Below are positions 4,283 through 43,567 of a stretch of DNA of 43,567 nucleotides, in pieces. Below the pieces are notes generated by a model. The model did not search any database. It was not told the DNA's origin and saw only the letters and a list, made by a program, of their open reading frames with translations. The DNA is from Campylobacteraceae bacterium (GTDB taxonomy: Bacteria > Campylobacterota > Campylobacteria > Campylobacterales > Sulfurovaceae): NCBI GenBank assembly GCA_026983875.1, contig JALSTG010000144.1, positions 1-43,567 of the forward strand. The letters are read 5' to 3'. Position 1 is the stretch's first letter; each line of letters opens with the position of its first letter. The position numbers and the translations under genes are program-made.

Positions 4283-5023
4283 ATGGGACGAGCCTTCGAA
4301 TACCGCAAAGCCGCCAAAATGAAGCGCTGGGGACAGATGTCTCGAATCTTCCCCAAACTCGGCAAAATGATTACCATGGCTGCCAAAGAAGGAGGCAGCC
4401 CCGATCCCGAGATGAATGCCAAGCTCCGCACCGCCATCGCCAACGCCAAAGCCCAGAACATGCCCAAGGACAATATCGAAGCAGCCATCAAGCGAGCTTT
4501 CAACAAAGATGCGGCGGATATCAAGGAGATGCACTACGAGGCCAAGGGACCCCACGGCAGTCTGATGATCATCGAGTGTGCCACCGACAACCCTACCCGA
4601 ACCGTAGCAAATGTCAAAGCGATCCTGGTCCGTAACAAAGGTGAGCTCCTCACCAGCGGTTCTCTGGACTTTATGTTTACCCGCAAGTCGGTCTTTGAAT
4701 TCGACAGGCGCGAGGATCTCGATCTCGAAGAGCTGGAGCTGGAGCTTATCGACTACGGTCTCGAGGAGATCGAAGAGGACAAAATCCCTCAGGAAAACGG
4801 CGAAGACAAGATGATCGTCCGAATCTACGGCGAGTTCACCTCCTTCGGCGAACTGAGCAAAGCCCTCGAAGAGCGGGGAATCGAGGTGAGCAAAGCCCAG
4901 CTTCAGTATATCCCCAACACCCCCGTCGAGCTGAGCGAGGAGCAGATGGACGAGGTCGGCACCCTGACCGAAAAACTCGAAGAGGATGACGATGTTCAGG
5001 TCGTTTATACCAATCTGGCATAA
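4283..5023 (+). CDS. yebC: YebC/PmpR (TACO1) family protein
   Basis: The 246-residue protein belongs to the YebC/TACO1 family. Members have been described as DNA-binding regulators and, more recently, as ribosome-associated factors that ease translation of proline-rich stretches; the sequence cannot decide between these. It starts with the family hallmark [28 protein letters not shown], followed by a helical segment with NPKxxLRxAI-type features ([29 protein letters not shown]) and the second domain [28 protein letters not shown]. Length is normal for the family. A Shine-Dalgarno AAGGAAG precedes the ATG. It has its own likely promoter and is followed by a repeat-rich intergenic region. Confidence 0.96.
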
Positions 5024-5044
5024 GAGTACCGAGTGCTGAGTGTC
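5024..5044 (+). repeat. Three tandem heptamers GAGTNYY after yebC
   Basis: Directly after the yebC stop codon come three 7-bp units in register: GAGTACC, GAGTGCT and GAGTGTC. The units keep GAGT and vary in the last three bases. The period equals that of the unrelated CTATTCA array 54 bp further on. Confidence 0.6.
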
Positions 5045-5071
5045 ATGCGTTTAGAAAAAAATTTTAAAAAA

Positions 5072-5125
5072 GCGGCGCGAAGCAACGCATACCGATACTA
5101 TTCACTATTCACTATTCACTATTCA
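5072..5125 (+). repeat. Composite element copy A: 17-nt hairpin, 9-nt spacer, 4 x CTATTCA
   Basis: Bases 5072-5088 form a 17-nt imperfect hairpin (GCGGCGC GAA GCAACGC, two mismatched pairs, 3-nt loop). After 9 nt follow four perfect CTATTCA units at 5098-5125. The array ends 26 bp before the ubiX-type start codon. A second element with the same dimensions lies at 43019-43072. What it does is unknown. Confidence 0.8.
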
Positions 5126-5151
5126 TCACCAGTTTTATACGGGAGTCTCGT

Positions 5152-5679
5152 ATGAAACTGGCACTTGTCATCTCAGGTGCCAGCGGCGTCGAGTTGGGCG
5201 TTAAGTTCCTAAAATATCTTCCGAAAAATGTCGAGCCCCATGTCGTCGTCTCCGACAATGCCCTCAAGGTTCAACTCCACGAGCTGGGACGCATTACTTT
5301 CCATTCCGACGAAAACATTGCCGCCGGTCCCGCCAGCGGCTCCTTCGGTATCCACGCCACTGCCGTCATCCCCTGCTCCATGAACACCCTGGCCAAGATC
5401 GCCTGCGGCATCTCCGATACGCTGGCCACCCGTACCGCCGCCGTCGCTCTCAAGGAGAACCGACCGCTTCTCCTCGCCCCCCGAGAGATGCCCCTCTCCC
5501 CTATCGCCCTGGAAAACATGCTCAAACTCTCCCGGCTGGGCGTGCTCATCGCCCCACCAATAGCAGGCTACTACGCCGAACACGACTCCCTGGAAGCTAT
5601 GGAGCGCTTCTGGATAGGAAAATGGTACGATCTGCTCGGCATCGAGCACGAGCTCTATCGACGCTGGTCCGGTTCCTGA
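5152..5679 (+). CDS. ubiX: UbiX/Pad1-type flavin prenyltransferase
   Basis: UbiX joins dimethylallyl (mono)phosphate to FMN, giving the prenylated flavin that UbiD-type decarboxylases need, for example in ubiquinone or menaquinone synthesis. The 175-residue protein is slightly shorter than E. coli UbiX (189). It shows the FMN-binding start LALVISGASGVELG, the central VIPCSMNTLAKIACGISDTLATR and the C-terminal block RPLLLAPREMPLSPIALENMLKLSRLGVLIAPP, all hallmarks of the family. A Shine-Dalgarno-like GGGAG precedes the ATG. Upstream lies the heptamer-repeat element; downstream the stop is only 7 bp from the convergent stop of the autotransporter gene. No UbiD is in the window. Confidence 0.93.
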   Translation: MKLALVISGASGVELGVKFLKYLPKNVEPHVVVSDNALKVQLHELGRITFHSDENIAAGPASGSFGIHATAVIPCSMNTLAKIACGISDTLATRTAAVALKENRPLLLAPREMPLSPIALENMLKLSRLGVLIAPPIAGYYAEHDSLEAMERFWIGKWYDLLGIEHELYRRWSGS

Positions 5680-8111: not shown

Positions 8112-11100
8112 TCATACTGCAGTGTGAACGGACTGGTCTTCCACATTCAAATGCACAGTCGGATCGTCCGATGGTGTATAGTCCGTACTCGGTGCCACGG
8201 GTTCCGCAGCGGTACTATAGTCCCCATCATTTATTTGCGAACTCTGAGGCAAGAGTGAATCGGTACTGCTGTCTCCAAGATCCAAAATCTCATGGAGTGC
8301 AGGGGAAATGACCGACACTTCTGCTCCAAAGAGATCTTGAATTTCTTCGGAAGTCGCCTCTGGCGAAAATTCCGCCTGCAGGTCATCCGTCATAGGCACA
8401 TTTTCAGGCAGCTGAGTATCGAAGTGCAGCACTTCCGTCGACTCGACGCCGCTATATTCGACGAGCATCTCGGCCACATGCTCCATCGCATCCGCATTAT
8501 CTACCGCCTGGGCGCCATTGGTTTCGATGATGGAGACCAGAGCCTCTTCGCTGATCGTCGCCAGATCGAAGCTGTCGTCACTGAAGGCTTCGTGCATCGC
8601 TTCGGTGATAACGATACCGTTGTAGGCATCCCCGTCGTTGTCCAAGGATTGCAGCAGTACCGCCATATTTTCAACATACTGATCGCTCAGATCCGTTCGA
8701 TCCGTTCCGGCGATATCCTGCAGGAAGACTTTACCGTCTTCGATCTGTGTCGTATCGAGGCGTCCGAGCTCAACCTCGCCGATCTTGAAGACGACCGTGT
8801 CGCCATCTGCATAATCAAAAGTCCCGTCGGCATCGGTAAATCCGTGCAGCCCGCTGCTGGTTTCGTAGTACATCCCTTCGACGATACCGTCGATGACCGT
8901 AGAGCTTCGGGTGACATCGGCCGTTCCGTCGACGTGAATTGTATAAGCACCTGCGGTATAGTCACCGTTTCCGGCATCCGTCCACTGATTGGTAAGATTC
9001 AGGGTATCGTCGCCGTCTGCATGTATCGTGAGGGTCGTGTTGGTCCCATCCAGCATCCGCGCCACATCCTCTTGGGCCAGATTGCTCAGCGTGTGCGTAC
9101 CCGTGCGCAAATCGATCGCTTCGATATTGGCAAAAGGCGTATCCGTCCCGCTGAAATCTACATCCGTTCCGGACTTTAGAACCACCGTATCTACTCCGCC
9201 TTCTCCGTCAAAAGTATCCGTCCCATCATAGAGGAACGTATCATCTCCGGAGCTTGGAGCGGCGGGATGGATATTGAGCTCAAATGTAGCGGAGACATCG
9301 GACGATGTATCCGAAGTCGCCTGTTCGACCGTATGGGCCGTCACGGTCACGGTAGCGCTCACGGCACTCTGAATAAACGTAATTTCGTTGACATCCAGTG
9401 CCGGCACGCCGCTAAGTGTATAAGTATCGCTGCTTGCATCATATACCGCAGGGAAATAGCTACCCGCCACTTTGAATGACGCACCCTCACCCAGACCCGT
9501 CAACGTCAGATCCACGACTTCCGAACCGTCCAGATCGATGACGTTGGCATTGAGTCTCAAAGGAATCTCCTCCCCCTCGCCTCCGAAAGTCTTGGTGGGT
9601 TCGATAGTGAGACCGTCCACGACGGGATTGACCTCCGCATTGAAGGTACTGCTCTGGGCATTCCCGCCCTCAGAGAGGATATTGAGAGAGACATCGGGGA
9701 TGGTTCCGCTCCAGTTTTCGGGAGGTTGAATCGCGATATACGCCGGGATCTCTCCGTTGTTCGTCGGAATGTTCCAGAGGTTGTAATCCACCGTTTCATC
9801 CACTCCGTAATGCATCTGCAGCGTCATCTGCCCGTTGACCCCGACATTCTGTGCAATCGTGGCACTCGCGGCATCCGCACCGTAATAGACGATAAATCCA
9901 TTGGGGATACGGTCCAGGGTAATGGAGCTGAGTTTTTCGGAGTCGTCCGGATCTTCTCCATTGACCGTCAATACAACCCGCGTATCTTCGTCACCGCTTG
10001 CGCTCGCTGCAAAGTTGCTAAAGCCGTCCTCGACCGGTGTCACGTCGATCCCGATTGTTTTGTGGGAAACGACCTCCTGAGTATCGTAAGGATTCCACGC
10101 TTCACTCTCTTTGTTTTTGACGTAGAGATCCATATCGACATGTCCGTCCCGATTCTCTGCAGGCTTGTAGACGAAATCCAAAGTGTCGCCGTATTGTACG
10201 TTTTCGATCACGTAGTAGTCCCCGTCGGCGATGCCGGACACCCCGCTGACATGGGTCAAGGTAAGTTGGGTACCGTTGTACCAGAGCGACCCGTTCGTGC
10301 CGTCATCGCCCTGGAAGTCTGTATAGTTTTCATTCAGCTGCAGGTAGACCTTTCCGTCGATGATCTCCGTCCGATTTCCGTCTCCCTGATTATCCATGGT
10401 GACACTGAACTGATAGTCGGTATCTTCGGGGGTGGTCCCCGTACCGGTGGTACTCAGATCCATCGGATCGGTCACGGGCAGAATCGGTGCGGAAAAGTTG
10501 ATCAGTGCCGTCTGGGCATCTCCTGCATCGGCATAGGTCGTCAACTCGATATCGAAATTGAGATCCGTATTATCCGGATCGTTCGCATCCGTATTGTGGT
10601 TTTCCGGCGGTGTGATCGTCAAATTCTGGAGCGCCTGAACGATCGCGGCCTGATCTCCCTGGCCGGTCAAAGTGTACATCTGATTGACCATATCATAGCT
10701 CAAGCCGGGACCGGAAATCGTATATCCTGGGGTAAGATCTCGAATCGTAATACCGAACGATCCCGTCCCGTCCGTCTCTACATGAATCACGTCGCTCAAT
10801 GCGAAAGGCGTATCTTCTCGCAAAATACTCCCTGGATAGGCATCGCTGTCCGTAATATTGTGATCTTCGGAACTGCTCACCGTATAATCGTGATCATGAA
10901 CCCCGTCGTTGTCGATATCCTGATAGAACGCATTGATCGTCGGAGGCGGCGGAGGCGGATTGCCGCTGTCTACATCCGTCGGAACATGAAGCGTGAACGT
11001 CTCACTGTCATTCTGCTCCTGACCGTTTCCGCTATCTTCGTTGAATGCGGTAATCGTAATATCGTAATCCCCGGAAACCAAGGTGCCGTTTTCAAATTTG

Positions 11101-14100
11101 AATACCAGATCGTAGCTGGCATTGCCGTCGAGAGCGATATCCCCTACATCGACGTACCAGAGGCCGGAATAGTTGCTTCCGCCCGTATCCCCGGCATAGT
11201 GGCCATTTTCAATGGTGATTCCCTCAGGAACTCCATGGACCTCGATACGGGTGAACTTTTCGGATCCGTCCTCATCGGGATGTCCGCGACCGTCACTGTC
11301 GATGCCGTGGATCGCAATCTTTTTGGTAAACGTTCCCGTCGAACCGGCTGATGTATCGACGTTGACATCTGCAGCATCTCCGGAAGCGGTTGTGAAGATT
11401 CCGGTAGCCGTAGTCTCTGTCGTCATATCGATATCGTCGGTGACGGCATGCACATCGACGGTATAGTCGATATCCGTATGGCTTTGCGTGGCGGAGTAAG
11501 GATCTCCCGCCCCATCGAGAGCAGTATCCTGGACCGTATAGGAGATCTTGAAGCTGTATTGCCCGTTCATATTGGAATCTTCGGGCAACTGCACAAAGAC
11601 CGGCTGGGGCGTTCCGTTTTGTACCGCTACATCGATGTATCCGTCACCGTCCGTATCCGTCAACTGCTGATGGTTGGCATCATAAAGTGCTACACCGGCG
11701 GGCAGAGAGTCGACTTTGATCTGCAAGGTCTGCAGCTCTTCCGCCCCTGCAGCCGAACCGTCCGCATCCGGAGTGATCATACTGAAGTCGAGTTGATGAT
11801 ACTCATCTTCATCCTGGGTATCGTGGGTGTTGATCGTATTGTCCACTTCCGGAGTGATCATCACTTGCACGGGCTTCGTCGGATGGGTTTTGCTGTCGCC
11901 TTCACGCTCCGTCGTGATCATGGCGATATCAAAGTCCACTTCACCCGCATAGTTCTGAGGTGTGACGAGTTTGACATCCCCGTTTTTGAGATCTGCCAGA
12001 TCGATAAACCATATACGCCCGGCTCCCGTTCCGCCGACCAGCGTAGCACCCTGGATATCAAACGCCGTATCCAGACCGGTGAGTTTGATCGTCAATTTTT
12101 CCGACCCGTCACTGTCATATGAATCCAAAAGATCAGGAGTCGCCAGGATACCCTTCAGATCATAAGGGCCGGAGTCTTCTGTGCCGGTTGCGTTGAAACT
12201 GTGATCCGTACCGTTGTCGTCACTCAAATCAACGTTGGCGAGATCATCATGGACCGGAATATCCGCCACGCCTTTGACCTGAACATTGATATCCAATGCT
12301 GTCGGGGAAAGCTGAGTCGCCGCGACACTGCCGTCGGAGTAATGCTCGACGGAAACTCCCTCTACGTGCAGAGTGAAGTCTTCGTCGCTGTTATGCGGAG
12401 GAATGATCTTGAATACGGCATCGTTGTCAAAGTCCGTAATCTTCAGCTTCCAGGTGCCGTCACCGTTGTCCGTGATGTCCAAGCCGCTTCCGGAAGCCGT
12501 ATTTTTGTCGATCAAGACGCCGTCGTAATAGAGGGAGGCTCCGTCGGGTACCTGATCGACGGTAATGTCGTAGGTCTCGGATCCGTCGGTATCGTCGCTG
12601 CTGGCGACGATACCCAAATCGATGCCGTTTTGCGGTGCATCGATATCTGCCGCATTGGCATCGTTGGAGATATTGCCCTGGGTGCGACCAGCATCCTCCT
12701 CACCGATAGGCTGAGCCACCTGGAGCGTACAGTCATCGACGACCGGCGTGACATCGACAGTGAAGTAGACTTTGGCGATCTTGGTCGTATCGACGTAGCT
12801 CGTGTCGCTGTCGTGATCCGCCACCGAGAGGGTAATGACTCCGTTGTCGATCGTCCCGCCGAACTGTTCCGGAAGCTGTAGTGTGAAACTCGGATCATCG
12901 TCGGTATTGTCCGGGAAGGCGATCGTTACGCTCGCATCGGCGGTATTGTCATCGCTCCCGCCTGCAGCGACGGCGCTCACGCCGCCCAGTGTGACGACCG
13001 TGCCGTTGGGAATGCCGCTGATCGTATAGCTGCGATGCTCGCTGCCGTCCAGATCTCCGTGGGCTCCTCCGGGCCCCTTCTGCGCACCGCTCACGGCGGA
13101 GAGGAGAGCGGTCAGGTCGATCGCGCCGTCTCCTTCGCTGCGCGTATTGAAAGTATAGGTATCATCCTGATGAACATTGGTAGAGATCGTGCCTTCCGAA
13201 TTATCGTCCCACTTCAATGCGACATCATCCGTTCGTGCTTCGATGGCAAGGGTGAAAGAGTCACTGGCAGATTCCGTCAAAACGCTGCTGTTGGGATCGA
13301 GAGGCACGCCGCTGTCATCCGTCTCGTAGGAGGTAACCGAGAGCGTCATCTGGACGTCGATGTCGTTATCTTCCGCCGGAATGAGCTGTAGGGCGTTGAA
13401 TTCCGACTCACTCAGCGATATCGCTCCATCGGCCGAAGGATCGAGCCCACTGATATGATAATCGCTGACATCGTTGAGATAGAATTTGACGGTATCGCCA
13501 TCGGCTCCGATCGTCGCCAGTACCGTACCGTTGGTGTCTATCAGTTTCGCACCGGCCACGGCGGCGCCGTTGTCGAATTGCAGTTCGATGTAGCCAAGCC
13601 GCTCGGGATGATCTCCTGCATCCGTACCGTTCTGGTCGGTTTGATCGCTGCTGAGTGAAGGCTTGCTGAGATTCAAAGAGACTTTATTATTACCCTCAGT
13701 CTGATTGTCCTTGTCCTCCGTGGTGGAAAGATCACTCACAGCGACGCTGGGGGCATCGGCGACCGGAGTCACCGTCAAATCGACATGGGCACTGGCCGTA
13801 TCCCCGTCTGTATCGCTTACCGAATAATCGAAACCGTGTGTCGATCCGCTGTAGTCATGATGGGGAGTGAAAGTCAGCGTCCCATCACCGTTATTAGTCA
13901 ATTTACCGACCACGTCATTGAGCCCAGTGTCGTAGATATCGATACTGCTGCCGCTTGATACGCTCTGATCGCCGTCTACCCCGTTATTCAGTGTAATCTC
14001 GCCGCTTGAGAAGGATTCGTTGCTGATAATGATCGTCTGCGTATAATCCTCAGCGAGAGAGAGAGCCTGATCACTGCTTTGAGGCAGCGAGTCGTTGACC

Positions 14101-17100
14101 GTGACGGTGAAGTGGACAGGATCGCTGGTCTCTCCCTGATCACTGATTTCGAACGCAAAATCCAATACCACATCATCATCGCTGTCGACGGTGGGATGAT
14201 CGATATTTTTGAACTGGGTGTAGGTGTGGCTGTCGTCGCTGCCTCCCGGGGCATTCTTATCCAGGGTGATCACAAAGACCCGATCGTCATCCATCCGGCC
14301 GGATCCCTTGTAAGCGGTGATCGTATCGCCGTTGACCTCATATTCGATCGCCACGCCGTCGGAGGTCAGAGTCGTATAGGAAGCGTCATCGGAAGTGAAG
14401 GTCGGCGCCCCAGTGAAAGAGAGCGTGTAACCATTGTCGCCTGCCGGTGCCGTAATCCCCAGGCTGTCGGTATCTGTCAGGGTAGAAGTGGGGTCGAGAG
14501 GGTCGAAATTATCTTCGTCCACGTAGGAGTTTTCCGGCGTGCCGGGCGTGACTCCGTCGATGATTTCACCCGTCGTCGACTTGTCCGTGGCGTGGATTTC
14601 AAGGTTTTCGAAGGTACCGTCGTCGTCACTTACCGAAGCGATAGAGACGGTGTAGTGTTCGGTCCCCTCCGCGGTAAAGTCATCCAGAGGAACGTTGACG
14701 AATGTCTGAGAGGAACCTCCGGTAATCGTGACGGAGGTGGTCAGAGTGCTGAAGTCGGCACTGGTATCCACCCCGTCCGTGGATGTGTAGGTCAAGGTAA
14801 CCGTCACGCTCTTTCCGCTGGGAAGCGTGACCGGATTTCCATCTTTGTCGACAAGAGATACCGTATGACTCAACTGATTGCCCTCGATAACGGAATCGGG
14901 ATGAGTGATTTTGACATAGACGGTATCTACCGGCTGATTGGGCGTCGCATCTCCACTGGCTCCATCGGTGATGGTCGTGGTCACCGGATCGGTATGGACC
15001 TGGACGTTCTCGTAGCCGCTGCCCGAAACCGGAGCGTAGGAGTCGGCATCGATCGCCACCTTATACTTCTCACCGTTATCGGCCCGGTAGTCATCCAGGG
15101 TATCGATACTGAAGGCCTGCCCCAAGCTCACCTCTTGGCTCTGGGTCGCGGCGTAATCTTGGCTACCGTCGATGGCGCTTTGGCTCGTCACACCGTGGGC
15201 GTCTTGATCGGCCGTCGTGATCGTGACCGTTCCGATCTGGTTGACGGGCTCCAGTACCGTATCGGTCGTATACTCACTCGCCCCGGGCTTGAAGGCCAGG
15301 GCCATGTAATAAGCCGCGTCATCCTCGGGAACCTCGTTGGCGAAGACGTAGGTGTTGACGTTTCCGTTGCCGTCATCGACGAGGATCGGATTACCGTTAC
15401 TGTCACAGGCGACCAGGCGGATCTGGACCACTTCGTGATTGCTCTCCGCGTGGGTCGGATCGTTGGTCTCGTCATCCAGGCTGTTGGGATCGTTGGGATT
15501 CGTGCCGCTGTCGTCGGTGATGGTCGTGGTTACCGCCCCTTGATCGATACTGACGTCTTCGTAGACCGGCGTATTGGGAGCGCTATAGTTACCGATCGTA
15601 ACGGTAAAGGTCTCACCGTTATCGGCCATATAGTCATCCAAGGCATCTGCCGAAACCGCCGTCCCCAGGGCGATCCCCGTCACGTTGCTCTGAGGCAGGT
15701 AGTCGTTGCTTCCCTCGGGAGCGCCGGTATTCGTATCCCGTGTCGCCGTAGCGTCGGTGAAGGTGAAATCCACCGTTCCTTGCTGCAGGGAGCTATCGAG
15801 CACCGTCGCATCACTGAAGGTCGTCGTCCCGGGAGCGAAGGCCAGGGCTACGTAATGGGTCGTTCCCCCTTCGGGAGCCTCGTTGGCCTCCAGGTAGTGC
15901 CCGTCGTTGGAATCTTTCAGGGGCACTCCGTTTTCATCGGAGGCAAAGACCTTGATGATCACCGGCTCTGCGTTCTTCTCCGGCCCGTCGCTATGATCAC
16001 CCGGCGTATAGGGATCGGAATTGTCACGAATCGTCGTCGTGACATTGTCGAAATGCTCCGTGCCCTGGGAATCGGTATAGCCGTCATGATCGACATTTTC
16101 AAACTCGTTTTGCGTTACCGAATCGATGGTGAGACGATACTGCTCTCCATTGTCCGCGATATAGTCGTCGATCGTATCGACGTCAAAGCTGACGCTGAAG
16201 CTTCCGGAGGGAATCGTCAAAGTGATGGTATCTCCGTCCGTATATTGCGTATCGTCGTTTTGCGTCGTGAGATTGTTGTACCGGACCGTCACTTGCATAT
16301 CCTGGGTAACCGTCACCGGATTCCCGTCATGATCGAGAAGCCTGACCTGATAACCCTGTGCCGTATCCCCTTCGGCTACACTGTTGGGACCGACAATTTC
16401 CAGATAGACGGTATCGGCGGTATCATAACCTCCTTCGTCGGGGTTGGGATCGTTGGGCTCGTTGTCGGTGATCGTACCGATTGCACTGACGATATCGCTG
16501 GAGGCTCCGTTGGCTACCGTATGGGGCAAGAGCTGCTCATAGGTATTGTTTTGCTGAGAGACGTTGGAAATCGTAGCGATGTACTGCTCGTCTTGTTCAT
16601 TATAATAATCGTCCACCGCATTTACGGTAAAAGTGGTCGAACTGGTTCCGGCAAGGATCTGAACCGTGGTCACCGGGGCATAATCGTCCCCTGCGGTCGC
16701 AGGATCCTGGCCGTATCCATTGTAATCGATCGTCACGGTAATCGTCTCACCGGCTGCCACGGTTACCGGATCGCCGTTTTCGTCTACCAGCTCGACAGTA
16801 TGCGTCAGTTGGCCGCCTTCCGGGGCACTGTCGTCATGGAAAAGTTTGACGAAGACTTTGGTCGGCACCGCACCGTCATAGATCGTCGTCGTCACCGGAG
16901 AAGTATCGATAGAGACATCTTCATATCCGCCTCCGGCAGAGGGACGGGTATAAGAGTCGGCATCGATCGTGACGGTATAGGTCTCTCCGTCATCATTGAC
17001 GATATCGTTGAATGTTTCGGTACCGATGACGCTCCCCAACTGCACCGAAACCTGCGGATCGTTGTCGAAGTCCTGGGAGCCGTCGTTGGTACTCTGACTG

Positions 17101-18329
17101 GAAGCACCCCCCGCCGAACCGTCATGGAACGAGATATCGACCGTCCCCTGTTGCAAAGCGGCATCGAGAACCGAGTCGTCATTGAAAGTCGTCGTTCCCG
17201 GGCGGAAAGCCAATGCCATGTAGTGGGCCGTTTCTCCCTCTATGACGCTGTTAGCTACTTGATAATCCCCCGTCGCCGGATCCCGAATAATCTCCCCGTT
17301 GTCATCGAGAGCGATCAACTTGATCACCACGGGCTCACTGTCGGGTTCCGCCCCGTCGTTGGGATCATTGGGGTCATTGGGGGTCCCGTCGGTAGCCGCG
17401 TTGTCATGAATCGTCGTCGTCACCGGCTCCGGGTCTATCGTTACATTGCCGTACCCTCCTCCGGCCGTCCCATAGGAGCCGTCGGCGATTGAAACCGTAA
17501 ACTCTTCGGAGTCGTCGGCCATATAATCATCAAAAAGCTCGGTAGAGATGGGAGTGCCTAGCGGGACATTGACCTGGGTCGCATTGGAGAAGTCCTGGCT
17601 TCCGTCCTGGGCACTTTGGTGATCGGCGCCCTGAGCCGAATCGTTCCGGAAAAGGATCGTCACGGTACCACTCTGGTCACTCAAACGTGTCTCGGGAGTA
17701 AACTCCGTCGTCCCCGGTTGGAACGCCAGCGCCATATACTGAGTCGCTTCCCCTTCGTAGCCTTCGTTCGCCACGGCATAATGCCCCTGAGGATCCAAAA
17801 TGGGGTTTCCGTCCTGATCCAGGGCGATCAGTTTGATAATGACCGGAGGATTGGGGCCTCCGCTCTCCATCTCGGCATAGGGATCGTATTCGTGACGGAA
17901 CTCATCTTCAAAGCGATTATCCCTGAGAGGAGCGTCGATATTGACTTCATCCTGTGCACCCGGACGCCAGAAGCCGGTGTTGTTCATCCAGAAGTCACCA
18001 TGTTTGATGGGAGCCTGCAGCTGCCAATCAGTTTCTATATTTTCCAGAAAGTCGTGATAGTCGGTCGTTTCGGGAATTTTTTTCTCTTCGGGTTGTTTCT
18101 CCTCTTCGGAAGGTGCTTCCGCCGTCGGAGTCTCTGTCTGTTCTGCCGCAGTCGCATCCGACTCGACCGCCGGACGCAGAGCATCTACGACGACATGACC
18201 CGCAGCATCGACCACCACTTCACCTTCGTATATCGGATCATCCGGATGAATTTCTCTCAAATTCCCTTCCGGATCCTTGGCATAATACTGACCTGTCAAA
18301 TCTTTGAGGTATCCTATGATCCTTTTCAT
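8112..18329 (-). CDS. Giant LapA-like type I-secreted adhesin
   Basis: This about 3,405-residue acidic protein is probably a surface adhesin exported by the neighbouring type I system. I start it at ATG 18329 because AAAAGGG lies 5-6 bp before it; the ORF track uses a TTG 15 bp upstream. Residues 1-50 resemble a LapA retention module (GYLKDLTGQYYAKDPEGNLR, then GEVVVDAAGHVVV). A charged linker follows. From about 155 to 1255 come seven Calx-beta-like modules of two subtypes in the order A-A-B-B-A-A-B, each closing in a TTxTxD-type strand. About 1255-3015 is cadherin/VCBS-like repeats with DxDGS motifs and a six-proline hinge near 2460. A short RTX-like GDDTFLYDGTD block (about 3025) and a DGIVEGMYYETSSG domain (about 3145) end the protein. 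There is no Sec signal peptide, as expected for type I export. Confidence 0.88.
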   Translation of the reverse strand: MKRIIGYLKDLTGQYYAKDPEGNLREIHPDDPIYEGEVVVDAAGHVVVDALRPAVESDATAAEQTETPTAEAPSEEEKQPEEKKIPETTDYHDFLENIETDWQLQAPIKHGDFWMNNTGFWRPGAQDEVNIDAPLRDNRFEDEFRHEYDPYAEMESGGPNPPVIIKLIALDQDGNPILDPQGHYAVANEGYEGEATQYMALAFQPGTTEFTPETRLSDQSGTVTILFRNDSAQGADHQSAQDGSQDFSNATQVNVPLGTPISTELFDDYMADDSEEFTVSIADGSYGTAGGGYGNVTIDPEPVTTTIHDNAATDGTPNDPNDPNDGAEPDSEPVVIKLIALDDNGEIIRDPATGDYQVANSVIEGETAHYMALAFRPGTTTFNDDSVLDAALQQGTVDISFHDGSAGGASSQSTNDGSQDFDNDPQVSVQLGSVIGTETFNDIVNDDGETYTVTIDADSYTRPSAGGGYEDVSIDTSPVTTTIYDGAVPTKVFVKLFHDDSAPEGGQLTHTVELVDENGDPVTVAAGETITVTIDYNGYGQDPATAGDDYAPVTTVQILAGTSSTTFTVNAVDDYYNEQDEQYIATISNVSQQNNTYEQLLPHTVANGASSDIVSAIGTITDNEPNDPNPDEGGYDTADTVYLEIVGPNSVAEGDTAQGYQVRLLDHDGNPVTVTQDMQVTVRYNNLTTQNDDTQYTDGDTITLTIPSGSFSVSFDVDTIDDYIADNGEQYRLTIDSVTQNEFENVDHDGYTDSQGTEHFDNVTTTIRDNSDPYTPGDHSDGPEKNAEPVIIKVFASDENGVPLKDSNDGHYLEANEAPEGGTTHYVALAFAPGTTTFSDATVLDSSLQQGTVDFTFTDATATRDTNTGAPEGSNDYLPQSNVTGIALGTAVSADALDDYMADNGETFTVTIGNYSAPNTPVYEDVSIDQGAVTTTITDDSGTNPNDPNSLDDETNDPTHAESNHEVVQIRLVACDSNGNPILVDDGNGNVNTYVFANEVPEDDAAYYMALAFKPGASEYTTDTVLEPVNQIGTVTITTADQDAHGVTSQSAIDGSQDYAATQSQEVSLGQAFSIDTLDDYRADNGEKYKVAIDADSYAPVSGSGYENVQVHTDPVTTTITDGASGDATPNQPVDTVYVKITHPDSVIEGNQLSHTVSLVDKDGNPVTLPSGKSVTVTLTYTSTDGVDTSADFSTLTTSVTITGGSSQTFVNVPLDDFTAEGTEHYTVSIASVSDDDGTFENLEIHATDKSTTGEIIDGVTPGTPENSYVDEDNFDPLDPTSTLTDTDSLGITAPAGDNGYTLSFTGAPTFTSDDASYTTLTSDGVAIEYEVNGDTITAYKGSGRMDDDRVFVITLDKNAPGGSDDSHTYTQFKNIDHPTVDSDDDVVLDFAFEISDQGETSDPVHFTVTVNDSLPQSSDQALSLAEDYTQTIIISNESFSSGEITLNNGVDGDQSVSSGSSIDIYDTGLNDVVGKLTNNGDGTLTFTPHHDYSGSTHGFDYSVSDTDGDTASAHVDLTVTPVADAPSVAVSDLSTTEDKDNQTEGNNKVSLNLSKPSLSSDQTDQNGTDAGDHPERLGYIELQFDNGAAVAGAKLIDTNGTVLATIGADGDTVKFYLNDVSDYHISGLDPSADGAISLSESEFNALQLIPAEDNDIDVQMTLSVTSYETDDSGVPLDPNSSVLTESASDSFTLAIEARTDDVALKWDDNSEGTISTNVHQDDTYTFNTRSEGDGAIDLTALLSAVSGAQKGPGGAHGDLDGSEHRSYTISGIPNGTVVTLGGVSAVAAGGSDDNTADASVTIAFPDNTDDDPSFTLQLPEQFGGTIDNGVITLSVADHDSDTSYVDTTKIAKVYFTVDVTPVVDDCTLQVAQPIGEEDAGRTQGNISNDANAADIDAPQNGIDLGIVASSDDTDGSETYDITVDQVPDGASLYYDGVLIDKNTASGSGLDITDNGDGTWKLKITDFDNDAVFKIIPPHNSDEDFTLHVEGVSVEHYSDGSVAATQLSPTALDINVQVKGVADIPVHDDLANVDLSDDNGTDHSFNATGTEDSGPYDLKGILATPDLLDSYDSDGSEKLTIKLTGLDTAFDIQGATLVGGTGAGRIWFIDLADLKNGDVKLVTPQNYAGEVDFDIAMITTEREGDSKTHPTKPVQVMITPEVDNTINTHDTQDEDEYHQLDFSMITPDADGSAAGAEELQTLQIKVDSLPAGVALYDANHQQLTDTDGDGYIDVAVQNGTPQPVFVQLPEDSNMNGQYSFKISYTVQDTALDGAGDPYSATQSHTDIDYTVDVHAVTDDIDMTTETTATGIFTTASGDAADVNVDTSAGSTGTFTKKIAIHGIDSDGRGHPDEDGSEKFTRIEVHGVPEGITIENGHYAGDTGGSNYSGLWYVDVGDIALDGNASYDLVFKFENGTLVSGDYDITITAFNEDSGNGQEQNDSETFTLHVPTDVDSGNPPPPPPTINAFYQDIDNDGVHDHDYTVSSSEDHNITDSDAYPGSILREDTPFALSDVIHVETDGTGSFGITIRDLTPGYTISGPGLSYDMVNQMYTLTGQGDQAAIVQALQNLTITPPENHNTDANDPDNTDLNFDIELTTYADAGDAQTALINFSAPILPVTDPMDLSTTGTGTTPEDTDYQFSVTMDNQGDGNRTEIIDGKVYLQLNENYTDFQGDDGTNGSLWYNGTQLTLTHVSGVSGIADGDYYVIENVQYGDTLDFVYKPAENRDGHVDMDLYVKNKESEAWNPYDTQEVVSHKTIGIDVTPVEDGFSNFAASASGDEDTRVVLTVNGEDPDDSEKLSSITLDRIPNGFIVYYGADAASATIAQNVGVNGQMTLQMHYGVDETVDYNLWNIPTNNGEIPAYIAIQPPENWSGTIPDVSLNILSEGGNAQSSTFNAEVNPVVDGLTIEPTKTFGGEGEEIPLRLNANVIDLDGSEVVDLTLTGLGEGASFKVAGSYFPAVYDASSDTYTLSGVPALDVNEITFIQSAVSATVTVTAHTVEQATSDTSSDVSATFELNIHPAAPSSGDDTFLYDGTDTFDGEGGVDTVVLKSGTDVDFSGTDTPFANIEAIDLRTGTHTLSNLAQEDVARMLDGTNTTLTIHADGDDTLNLTNQWTDAGNGDYTAGAYTIHVDGTADVTRSSTVIDGIVEGMYYETSSGLHGFTDADGTFDYADGDTVVFKIGEVELGRLDTTQIEDGKVFLQDIAGTDRTDLSDQYVENMAVLLQSLDNDGDAYNGIVITEAMHEAFSDDSFDLATISEEALVSIIETNGAQAVDNADAMEHVAEMLVEYSGVESTEVLHFDTQLPENVPMTDDLQAEFSPEATSEEIQDLFGAEVSVISPALHEILDLGDSSTDSLLPQSSQINDGDYSTAAEPVAPSTDYTPSDDPTVHLNVEDQSVHTAV
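17355..17381 (-). repeat. 9-bp tandem repeat coding PND-PND-PND in the adhesin
   Basis: Three nearly identical 9-bp units (GTCGTTGGG, ATCATTGGG, GTCATTGGG on +) encode a Pro-Asn-Asp linker between the first two Calx-beta modules. Because the unit is a multiple of three, slippage would change linker length without breaking the frame. Confidence 0.6.
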
Positions 18330-18473: not shown

Positions 18474-19394
18474 TTACCGATAGAGTTTCGCTTCGATCCT
18501 GCGGTTCTGACGGTAGGCGGCTTCGCTGTGACCGGAGACGAGGGGTTGCGTATAGCCCCGACCTTCGGTACGGATCCGGTCCGGGGAGACTCCCAGCTCG
18601 ACCAGGCGGGCCTTGACCGCTTCGGCGCGACGCTTGGAGAGGGTGATGTTGTAAGCGTAACTTCCTCGCCGATCGGTATGACCGACGATGGTGGTGGAGA
18701 GACCAGGATTCTGCTTAAGAAGTCGGGCGAAGTCCGCTACACGCGTTTCGAACTGGGGAAGGATTCGGTCGGAATCGAGGGCAAACTGGATACGCAGGTC
18801 CGCAAGGCTCAGAGGGCCGGTGGAATAGAGCGCCACATCGACCCGGTTGTTCCCCAGGCGTCCTGCTGCCGTCGCTTCAGTATAGAGCAACTGACGGTCG
18901 AGGCGATTTTCGGAGAAGATCCGTGAAGCAGGCATACCCGCATCACGTACCACTCGGTAGAGATACCGCAGGCGCTCGTTGACCAGACGAACGGCCTGCG
19001 GCTTTTTCAGGCGCGGATCGCCGCCCAACCCCTGCCAGAGGCCGCTCCATCCGTCCAGATCCATACGATTCTCTTCGTCGACGACGGCGGAACTATGACC
19101 GATGAGGCTGACGTAGCGGATCTTGGAGCGGTTCTGACGGATCAGTTTTTCGAGCTGATCGATCGTCCCCTCAGAGGCATCGACGACTTCGGTACCCTGA
19201 AAGACCACCGGAGCCAGACGCACGACATAACGATGCCAGTGCAGCAATTGTCGTCCGTCTACATGATTGGGAAGTCCGGTCTCGACGGGAGCAGCGACCA
19301 CTCCGCTGCGCTGCATGTAGGTGTCATTATAGAGTCCACCTGCCATACTGATCGACGAAGCTGCCAGCATTGAAAGGAAAAAAGACTTGTTCAT
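18474..19394 (-). CDS. OmpA-family protein with two OmpA-like domains
   Basis: The 306-residue protein has a signal peptide (SFFLSMLAASSISMAGG) and a C-terminal OmpA/peptidoglycan-binding domain (about 185-306) with IVGHTDRRGSYAYNITLSKRRAEAV, RIRTEGRGYTQPL and RQNRRIEAKLY; the Asp and Arg that hold peptidoglycan are present. A second, diverged OmpA-like copy seems to precede it (about 60-183): VSLIGHSSAVVDEENR, a helix LVNERLRYLYRVV, RIFSENRLDRQLL and GRLGNNRVDVALYS. There the key Asp is replaced by Ser (GHSS), so it may not bind the wall. The ATG lies 2 bp behind the TolC-gene stop with GGGAGG inside that gene's end, which indicates translational coupling. It likely anchors or stabilises the secretion or adhesion apparatus at the cell wall. 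Confidence 0.85.
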   Translation of the reverse strand: MNKSFFLSMLAASSISMAGGLYNDTYMQRSGVVAAPVETGLPNHVDGRQLLHWHRYVVRLAPVVFQGTEVVDASEGTIDQLEKLIRQNRSKIRYVSLIGHSSAVVDEENRMDLDGWSGLWQGLGGDPRLKKPQAVRLVNERLRYLYRVVRDAGMPASRIFSENRLDRQLLYTEATAAGRLGNNRVDVALYSTGPLSLADLRIQFALDSDRILPQFETRVADFARLLKQNPGLSTTIVGHTDRRGSYAYNITLSKRRAEAVKARLVELGVSPDRIRTEGRGYTQPLVSGHSEAAYRQNRRIEAKLYR

Positions 19395-43018: not shown

Positions 43019-43072
43019 GCATCGCAAAGCGATGCCGACCAAACCTATTCCCTATTCCCTTTTACCTATTCT
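43019..43072 (+). repeat. Composite element copy B: 17-nt hairpin, 9-nt spacer, 4 heptamers
   Basis: GCATCGC-AAA-GCGATGC (43019-43035) is a perfect 7-bp hairpin with 3-nt loop. After 9 nt come four heptamers, CTATTCC, CTATTCC, CTTTTAC and CTATTCT (43045-43072). Sizes and spacing equal copy A at 5072-5125; the hairpin matches it in 12 of 17 bases. The array ends 17 bp before the dut TTG. Confidence 0.8.
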
Positions 43073-43089: not shown

Positions 43090-43567
43090 TTGCTTCAGAC
43101 CATGTTACGCCTCCAGCAGGAGCTCAACGACGCCACCAACGGTCCCGGATGGGAGCGAGGCCTCACCCGCCAGGGCAAGCGCATCGACTGGCGACGCTGC
43201 ATCTGGCTCGAGGCCGCCGAACTGGTGGAGAGCTACCCCTGGAAACACTGGAAAAACATCGCCGCCGAACCTGACTACGCCAATATCCGCATCGAAGCGG
43301 TCGATATCTGGCACTTCGTCATGAGCGAAGCTTTGCGGCTCAACACTCTCGAGGGTAATGGAGAGATCGCTTCCCTAGCCCGCCGCATTACCGAGACCGA
43401 GGCTTTCACAGCCTTTGACGACGGTAGCCTGGAGATCCCGGAGGATCTCTACGCTCAGATCGAGATCGTCGAATCCTTCGTCGCCGCCCTCTTCTCCCAC
43501 GCCTCCATTGAGGATCTGACGGAGCGGTTCTTTCGCGTCGCCCGCCTGGGTGATCTGAATCTGCAAA
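43090..43567 (+). CDS. dut: Dimeric all-alpha dUTPase (5' part, cut by window end)
   Basis: The enzyme hydrolyses dUTP to dUMP and pyrophosphate, keeping uracil out of DNA. About 159 codons are visible and the frame is open to the last base. The family is the all-alpha dimeric dUTPase, MazG-related and known from Campylobacter. Its marks are LEAAELVESYPWKHWKNI (first metal-binding ExxE) and RIEAVDIWHFVMSEAL (ExxD). I start at TTG 43090 (LLQTMLRLQQEL) because AAAAAAGGA stands six bases before it; the ATG at 43102 would be 18 bases away. The gene is missing from the ORF track since it has no stop in the window. The metals (Mg) bind the acidic residues in known family members. Confidence 0.9.
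   Translation, partial: MLQTMLRLQQELNDATNGPGWERGLTRQGKRIDWRRCIWLEAAELVESYPWKHWKNIAAEPDYANIRIEAVDIWHFVMSEALRLNTLEGNGEIASLARRITETEAFTAFDDGSLEIPEDLYAQIEIVESFVAALFSHASIEDLTERFFRVARLGDLNLQ

Follow-up and report, generated by a model that had tools for sequence, protein, structure and literature searches.

The element in front of ubiX belongs to one family of intergenic repeats, of which this genome holds about 40 to 60 copies, and across the family it is the structure, the period and the length that are kept while the sequences of stem and heptamers drift. The window, i.e. the whole stretch of DNA that was analysed, is an entire contig of 43.6 kb from a metagenome-derived genome of 1.85 Mb in 198 contigs; its UbiX relatives are 74-80% identical, which points to a Nitratifractor-like member of the Campylobacterota as the host. 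Two copies, A and B, are present (Table 1). Each measures 54 nt, and the dimensions that the earlier note had ascribed to both (a 17-nt hairpin footprint, a 9-nt spacer and four heptamers, at 5072-5125 and 43019-43072) were confirmed on the sequence, as was the identity of the two hairpins at 12 of 17 bases. Its description of hairpin A held for the footprint and the 3-nt loop, but only five of the seven pairs match, the other two being mismatched (G-A and C-A). Hairpin A is also absent from the predicted fold of the ubiX leader. The degenerate heptamers found behind yebC resemble arrays of AAGTGCT/AGTGAAG that lie behind other genes, and a TATAAT sequence is located 21 nt upstream of the copy B hairpin. 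Between the two copies, a simple gene caller gives one ORF of ~3400 codons (8112-18329, minus strand), which is unusually large for the contig.

Table 1. Coordinates of the two modules and of neighbouring features in the window.
Feature	Position	Strand	Description
yebC	4283..5023	+	upstream of and co-directional with ubiX; PF01709, E 2.6e-49
Degenerate purine heptamers AGTGCTGAGTGTCA	5032..5045	+	directly after the yebC stop codon; possible left-hand array remnant, uncertain
A-run before hairpin A	5066..5071	+	on the minus strand a U-run behind the hairpin
Copy A, hairpin footprint	5072..5088	+	GCGGCGC-gaa-GCAACGC; 7+3+7 nt; covariance-model match 5072-5115, 54.9 bits (copy A is a training row)
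Copy A, spacer ATACCGATA	5089..5097	+	family consensus NNNCCRAAA
Copy A, array	5098..5125	+	four perfect CTATTCA units
Hairpin over ubiX start	5129..5161	+	CCAGTTTTATACGGG-AGT-CTCGTATGAAACTGG; 15 bp, 3-nt loop; predicted fold; encloses Shine-Dalgarno GGGAG (5141-5145) and ATG (5152)
ubiX	5152..5679	+	flavin prenyltransferase; ATG 5152; Pfam Flavoprotein, PF02441, E 1.2e-37
Copy B, hairpin	43019..43035	+	GCATCGC-aaa-GCGATGC; perfect 7 bp, AAA loop; model match 43019-43062, 52.0 bits (training row)
Copy B, spacer CGACCAAAC	43036..43044	+	
Copy B, array	43045..43072	+	four imperfect units, CTATTCC CTATTCC CTTTTAC CTATTCT
dUTPase gene	43102..43567	+	after copy B; start ATG 43102 or TTG 43090; truncated by the contig end; PF08761, E 7.4e-20

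The earlier note had suspected a dispersed family and had regarded the resemblance as a coincidence if a search of the genome were to return these two sites only, or hairpins and heptamers at varied spacing. A covariance model of hairpin, spacer and heptamers (40 training rows, including copies A and B) matched 61 sites in the genome at E<=0.01, 39 of them at E<1e-7, and tens of copies in relatives, with the spacing fixed. Coincidence is also rejected by the heptamers: a three-unit pattern with <=2 mismatches has 55 matches genome-wide against 0 for its reversed control, and CTATTCACTATTCA, at the same tolerance of <=2 mismatches, is matched 4 times in the window, where 0.12 matches are expected.

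Anatomy of the module

Read on the C-rich strand, the module consists of an A-run (often present), a hairpin with 7 bp and a loop of 3 nt, the spacer NNNCC(A/G)AA(A) and some four heptamers that make up a G-poor tract, 29-30 nt long in most copies (median 29-30). A set of 71 modules was chosen by spacer and array alone, pairing not being a criterion. At least six of seven pairs are formed in one register (loop 3, stem end 3 nt before CC) in 44 of these 71; other registers are occupied by 0-4 modules, and the sole other high value, 41 at a position 1 nt outward with a loop of 5, represents the same hairpin minus its innermost pair. The modules have 20 different stem sequences. In a 40-copy alignment, changes on both sides, i.e. 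compensatory ones, occur at all seven pairs (37 cells vs 4.9 in shuffles), and 98.6% of the cells are paired as compared to 24-45% when slid; this alignment was filtered for good pairing, copy A excepted, and the unfiltered 71-module set is the fairer test and agrees. At least five A within the 8 nt before the hairpin were found in 27 of 44 modules, a T-run on the opposite side in none of the 44.

The heptamer letters vary freely and only the period of 7 and the length are constant. Units on the C-rich strand have few G, and common types have no G or C run of three. Among genomes the units comprise CTATTCA, CTCTTCA, CCATTCA, TTCCTCA, AAAATCC, GGTCATT and others. The period itself is conspicuous in 226 kb of the genome sampled without regard to the element, where near-perfect tandem arrays number 14 at lag 7 and 7 at its harmonic, lag 14, as compared to 0-1 at each of the remaining lags from 4 to 13 and at lag 15. 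A period-7 excess is likewise present in stretches of the relatives G001, G009, G011, G017, G018 and G027. These arrays are intergenic 7-nt tandem repeats beyond chance, as are long heptamer simple repeats (LSSR), with the statistics resting on genome stretches, of which those of G001 and G011 were partly picked because they bear the element, and on gene calls by a home-made codon-usage caller.

Distribution among genomes and between genes

The commonest hairpin, GCGTTGCNNNGCAACGC, has 10 copies in this genome, 57 in G001 and 35 in G011, and was found in eight more of the 41 genomes searched; it is absent from the other 30, which include four members of the same genus. One heptamer pattern matches 10 of the 11 genomes that carry GCGTTGCNNNGCAACGC and no others among the 41, and the arrays of the eleventh genome, G010, are built from other units. 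In stretches of G011, a single contig of 2,101,285 bp and presumably the type strain N. salsuginis DSM 16511, an array adjoins 21 of 27 hairpin sites by the lag test, most others having degenerate arrays by eye. Run on 298 sampled genomes of the phylum, the covariance model gave matches in 12 of them from five genera, with many copies in the genera g1 and g4. Heptamer arrays are spread wider in the order than the hairpin module. The complete genome G027, from another family of the order, has GGTCATT, GATTCCC and GGTTATT arrays (L113, L135, L136), mostly without the same hairpin; in the 41-genome search it gave 64 matches to the reversed control of the heptamer pattern.

No Rfam 15 family scored above its gathering threshold in the window, and five element-bearing stretches gave only tRNAs and one c-di-GMP riboswitch, a c-di-GMP-I-GGC type in G001 (L101:6654-6729, minus strand). 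Carriage of the module by phages was rejected, as 21 hairpin+CC matches in viral contigs are all without an array behind them. A second dispersed hairpin family, GTAGCGTGGGATTGCYATCCCACG, is REP-like with a GTAG tag and a hairpin. G001 has 35 copies of it, G007 has 28, this genome and G011 have none, and it often follows directly after a heptamer array (e.g. G001 L101 near 13065-13110 and L104 near 19110-19155).

Placement is oriented towards gene edges. Of 84 copies, 73 have the array side closer to the gene than the hairpin side; at gene 5' ends (n=48) a median of 25 nt separates the tract from the start codon, and at 3' ends (n=37) it overlaps the stop codon (median -3 nt). Within the intergenic region purine-type arrays mostly lie on the left and pyrimidine-type arrays mostly on the right, regardless of gene direction. 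Copies also occur singly; neighbouring ones form six inverted pairs with their arrays outward, 16-18 or 47-49 nt apart, and four tandem pairs with starts 63-66 nt apart (three at exactly 63); a convergent order was not seen. Co-directional regions carry arrays in 47 of 162 cases, divergent and convergent regions together in 5 of 68 (p 2e-4); in an unbiased sample of this genome, the figures are 12 of 60 for co-directional and 0 of 31 for other regions. The neighbouring genes are diverse housekeeping genes. As 5'- and 3'-end copies are about equal in number, a pure leader role fails: the leader RNA structure that the earlier note had considered is compatible with the copies at 5' ends, and a leader-only element is rejected as the full account.

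One divergent gene pair differs between this genome and G001: its intergenic region measures 78 nt and has no array in one of the two, and measures 272 nt and has three arrays in the second. In other orthologous regions the module is kept and its heptamers are new. The heptamer type turns over genome-wide. The array before ubiX has 4-5 units in six genomes of different species, the unit being CTATTCA, CTCTTCA or TCCTCAC. The suggestion of a slippage-prone spacer with varying unit number was not borne out by these orthologues, nor by the 29-30 nt that most copies share. The suggestion of a mobile miniature element fared better and is plausible in view of dispersal, inverted pairs and presence or absence at the same gene pair, but no transposase tracks the element and no transposition was seen. 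RAYT/Y1 transposases were rejected as mobilisers, because neither gene presence nor flanks track the element: Y1_Tnp is absent in the element-bearing G005 and G010 and present in the element-free G003 and G008, and the Y1 genes of G000 and G001 are flanked by no module. The module has presumably spread within the bacterial family by copying through some enzyme.

Hairpins at gene edges and possible functions

The hairpin that is predicted over the ubiX start is far stronger than hairpin A and had escaped the earlier note. At the corresponding position of the ubiX orthologues L052-L056 lies a hairpin of another sequence (CGAAAGC-GGA-GCTTTCG). In windows of 60 nt, start codons adjacent to arrays reach -15.5 kcal/mol vs -7.4 kcal/mol elsewhere (p 9e-6), and the same comparison in G001 gives -11.0 vs -8.5 (p 0.017). 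Stop codons beside arrays have no excess of fold strength. Perfect gene-specific palindromes of 12-16 bp span stop codons directly beside arrays in G000 and G001 (e.g. L108:677, L112:13711, L104:9732), and the presence of such palindromes at gene 3' ends indicates that translation control alone is insufficient as an explanation.

We classify the module, by its features, as a REP/BIME-like repeat family. Our best guess as to function, to which we give about an even chance, is that this REP/BIME-like family is kept as a tolerated or useful boundary of transcribed intercistronic RNA. In the mRNA leader of a downstream gene, the module hairpin would be followed by a free tract and then by a hairpin that masks the Shine-Dalgarno sequence and the start codon; the free tract may serve as a landing site for the ribosome (S1) beside the masked start. 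Landing sites adjoining masked starts are known from E. coli in the available text of PMC3936740 and PMC7708055. At the end of a gene, a copy in mirror orientation would contribute the stop codon together with a hairpin and U-run that resemble a terminator. We count in favour of a transcribed boundary the pairing in one register, the compensatory changes, the polarity of the arrays to the genes, the co-directional enrichment, the start-codon hairpins and the 61 sites. On the sense strand, copies at gene 5' ends have more G-U wobbles than A-C (10 vs 3), which is weak evidence that the module has a role as RNA in the mRNA of the downstream gene. Against a transcribed boundary stand the persistence of copy A despite its two hairpin mismatches and the promoter evidence, since no consistent -10 position, and hence no fixed promoter at the hairpin, was found among the copies.

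Next in line is a selfish or neutral REP/MITE-like repeat of no host function, in which template switching would keep the palindromes perfect and slippage the heptamers uniform. We consider this possible but somewhat doubtful: the patchy presence in the genus, the presence or absence at the same gene pair, the turnover of the heptamer type, the diverse housekeeping neighbours and the long gene-specific palindromes at both gene edges are in its favour, whereas length and register are held across genera, including the unit number at ubiX, polarity to gene edges and co-directional preference are left over and no associated transposase was found. That the hairpins are intrinsic terminators, with the U-run behind the hairpin on the array-to-hairpin strand and inverted pairs as bidirectional terminators, is improbable. 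The one-sided A-run would fit such a role, as would the T/A-rich centre shared by the inverted pairs that are 16-18 nt apart; however, about half of the copies would halt antisense transcripts only, 3'-end copies have no better T-runs than the others (p 0.99), convergent regions, the expected place of terminators, rarely bear arrays, a site scan gave no terminator-like site at copy A, and the array is left unexplained.

Ordinary heptamer simple repeats produced by polymerase slippage, with hairpins nearby by chance, are a very improbable explanation. Among long simple repeats, those with a 7-nt unit are in many bacteria the most strongly over-represented, and the polymerase has been put forward as a cause (Mrazek 2007, as cited in PMC4679880 and PMC4692102). 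Chance would, however, not place hairpin, loop size and CC spacer in one fixed register, the hairpin family is confined to array-bearing genomes, the hairpin+CC matches of viral contigs have no array, and array lengths are narrow. Slippage is thus refuted as the full explanation and may account for the uniformity of the units.

Relation to known repeats and significance

The likeness to REP/BIME elements (PMC3733652, PMC2817692) comprises the short hairpin with a short loop, tens of intergenic copies, compensatory stem changes, inverted pairs, a position near gene ends with occasional provision of the stop codon, and the preference for unidirectional genes, between which REPs preferentially lie (PMC3733652). 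Unlike these elements, the module includes a fixed heptamer tract and is as common at 5' as at 3' ends, and it lacks the link to a Y1 transposase of RAYT-linked REPs. The module falls outside the GTAG- and CGTC-tagged REPs, in one paper on which Sulfurovum is named: its tag at the stem is GGNNN, GTAG immediately adjoins the stem in 6 of 46 modules and CGTC occurs in the spacer of 0 of 46, the constant part being GG 3 nt from the stem.

The TAACTGA repeats of Beggiatoaceae and cyanobacteria (PMC4679880) are also intergenic arrays of a few units, many of them close before the starts of diverse genes, with some related 7-mers between; they consist of one fixed heptamer, most are without a ribosome-binding site, and no covarying hairpin and spacer are described for them, whereas the heptamers of the present family vary freely. 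GGGAATC of Xanthomonas, for which four units are the commonest number, and GGGGA(C/T)T of Nostoc likewise form intergenic arrays and inverted pairs, and differ in length and sequence between related strains (PMC4692102). Those are G-rich, were read as quadruplex formers and have no reported hairpin module, whereas the present arrays are G-poor or C-poor and their common units have no G runs of three, which rules out quadruplexes. In layout only, the module resembles ribosome standby leaders (tisB and designed ones), in which, in the text available from PMC7708055 and PMC3936740, a single-stranded tract lies upstream of a hairpin-masked ribosome-binding site; the 3'-end copies do not fit this comparison. 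The searchable literature yielded no relevant paper on CTATTCA heptamers, none on tandem repeats of Nitratifractor and none on a fixed combination of heptamers, hairpin and spacer.

The present value of the family lies in the anatomy of the module. Across the bacterial family the tract keeps its period and length while its letters drift, and it stands in fixed combination with a covarying hairpin and a gene edge; this separates sequence-specific binding, quadruplex formation and simple slippage as explanations, and the single-contig relative of 2.1 Mb (G011) is a place where single modules could be tested. The excess of heptamers in bacterial genomes has been on record since 2007; to our knowledge no cause has found acceptance, and the reports treat single sequences. 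As a long shot, we propose that a tract set by its period (7 nt) and its length (about four units, 30 nt) rather than by its letters is the functional part, either because a 7-nt register is read or because a free tract of just that size is needed between two gene-edge hairpins, and that the same rule might hold for the arrays of Xanthomonas, Nostoc and Beggiatoaceae. If this were true, the long-noted heptamer excess in bacteria would have a common cause.
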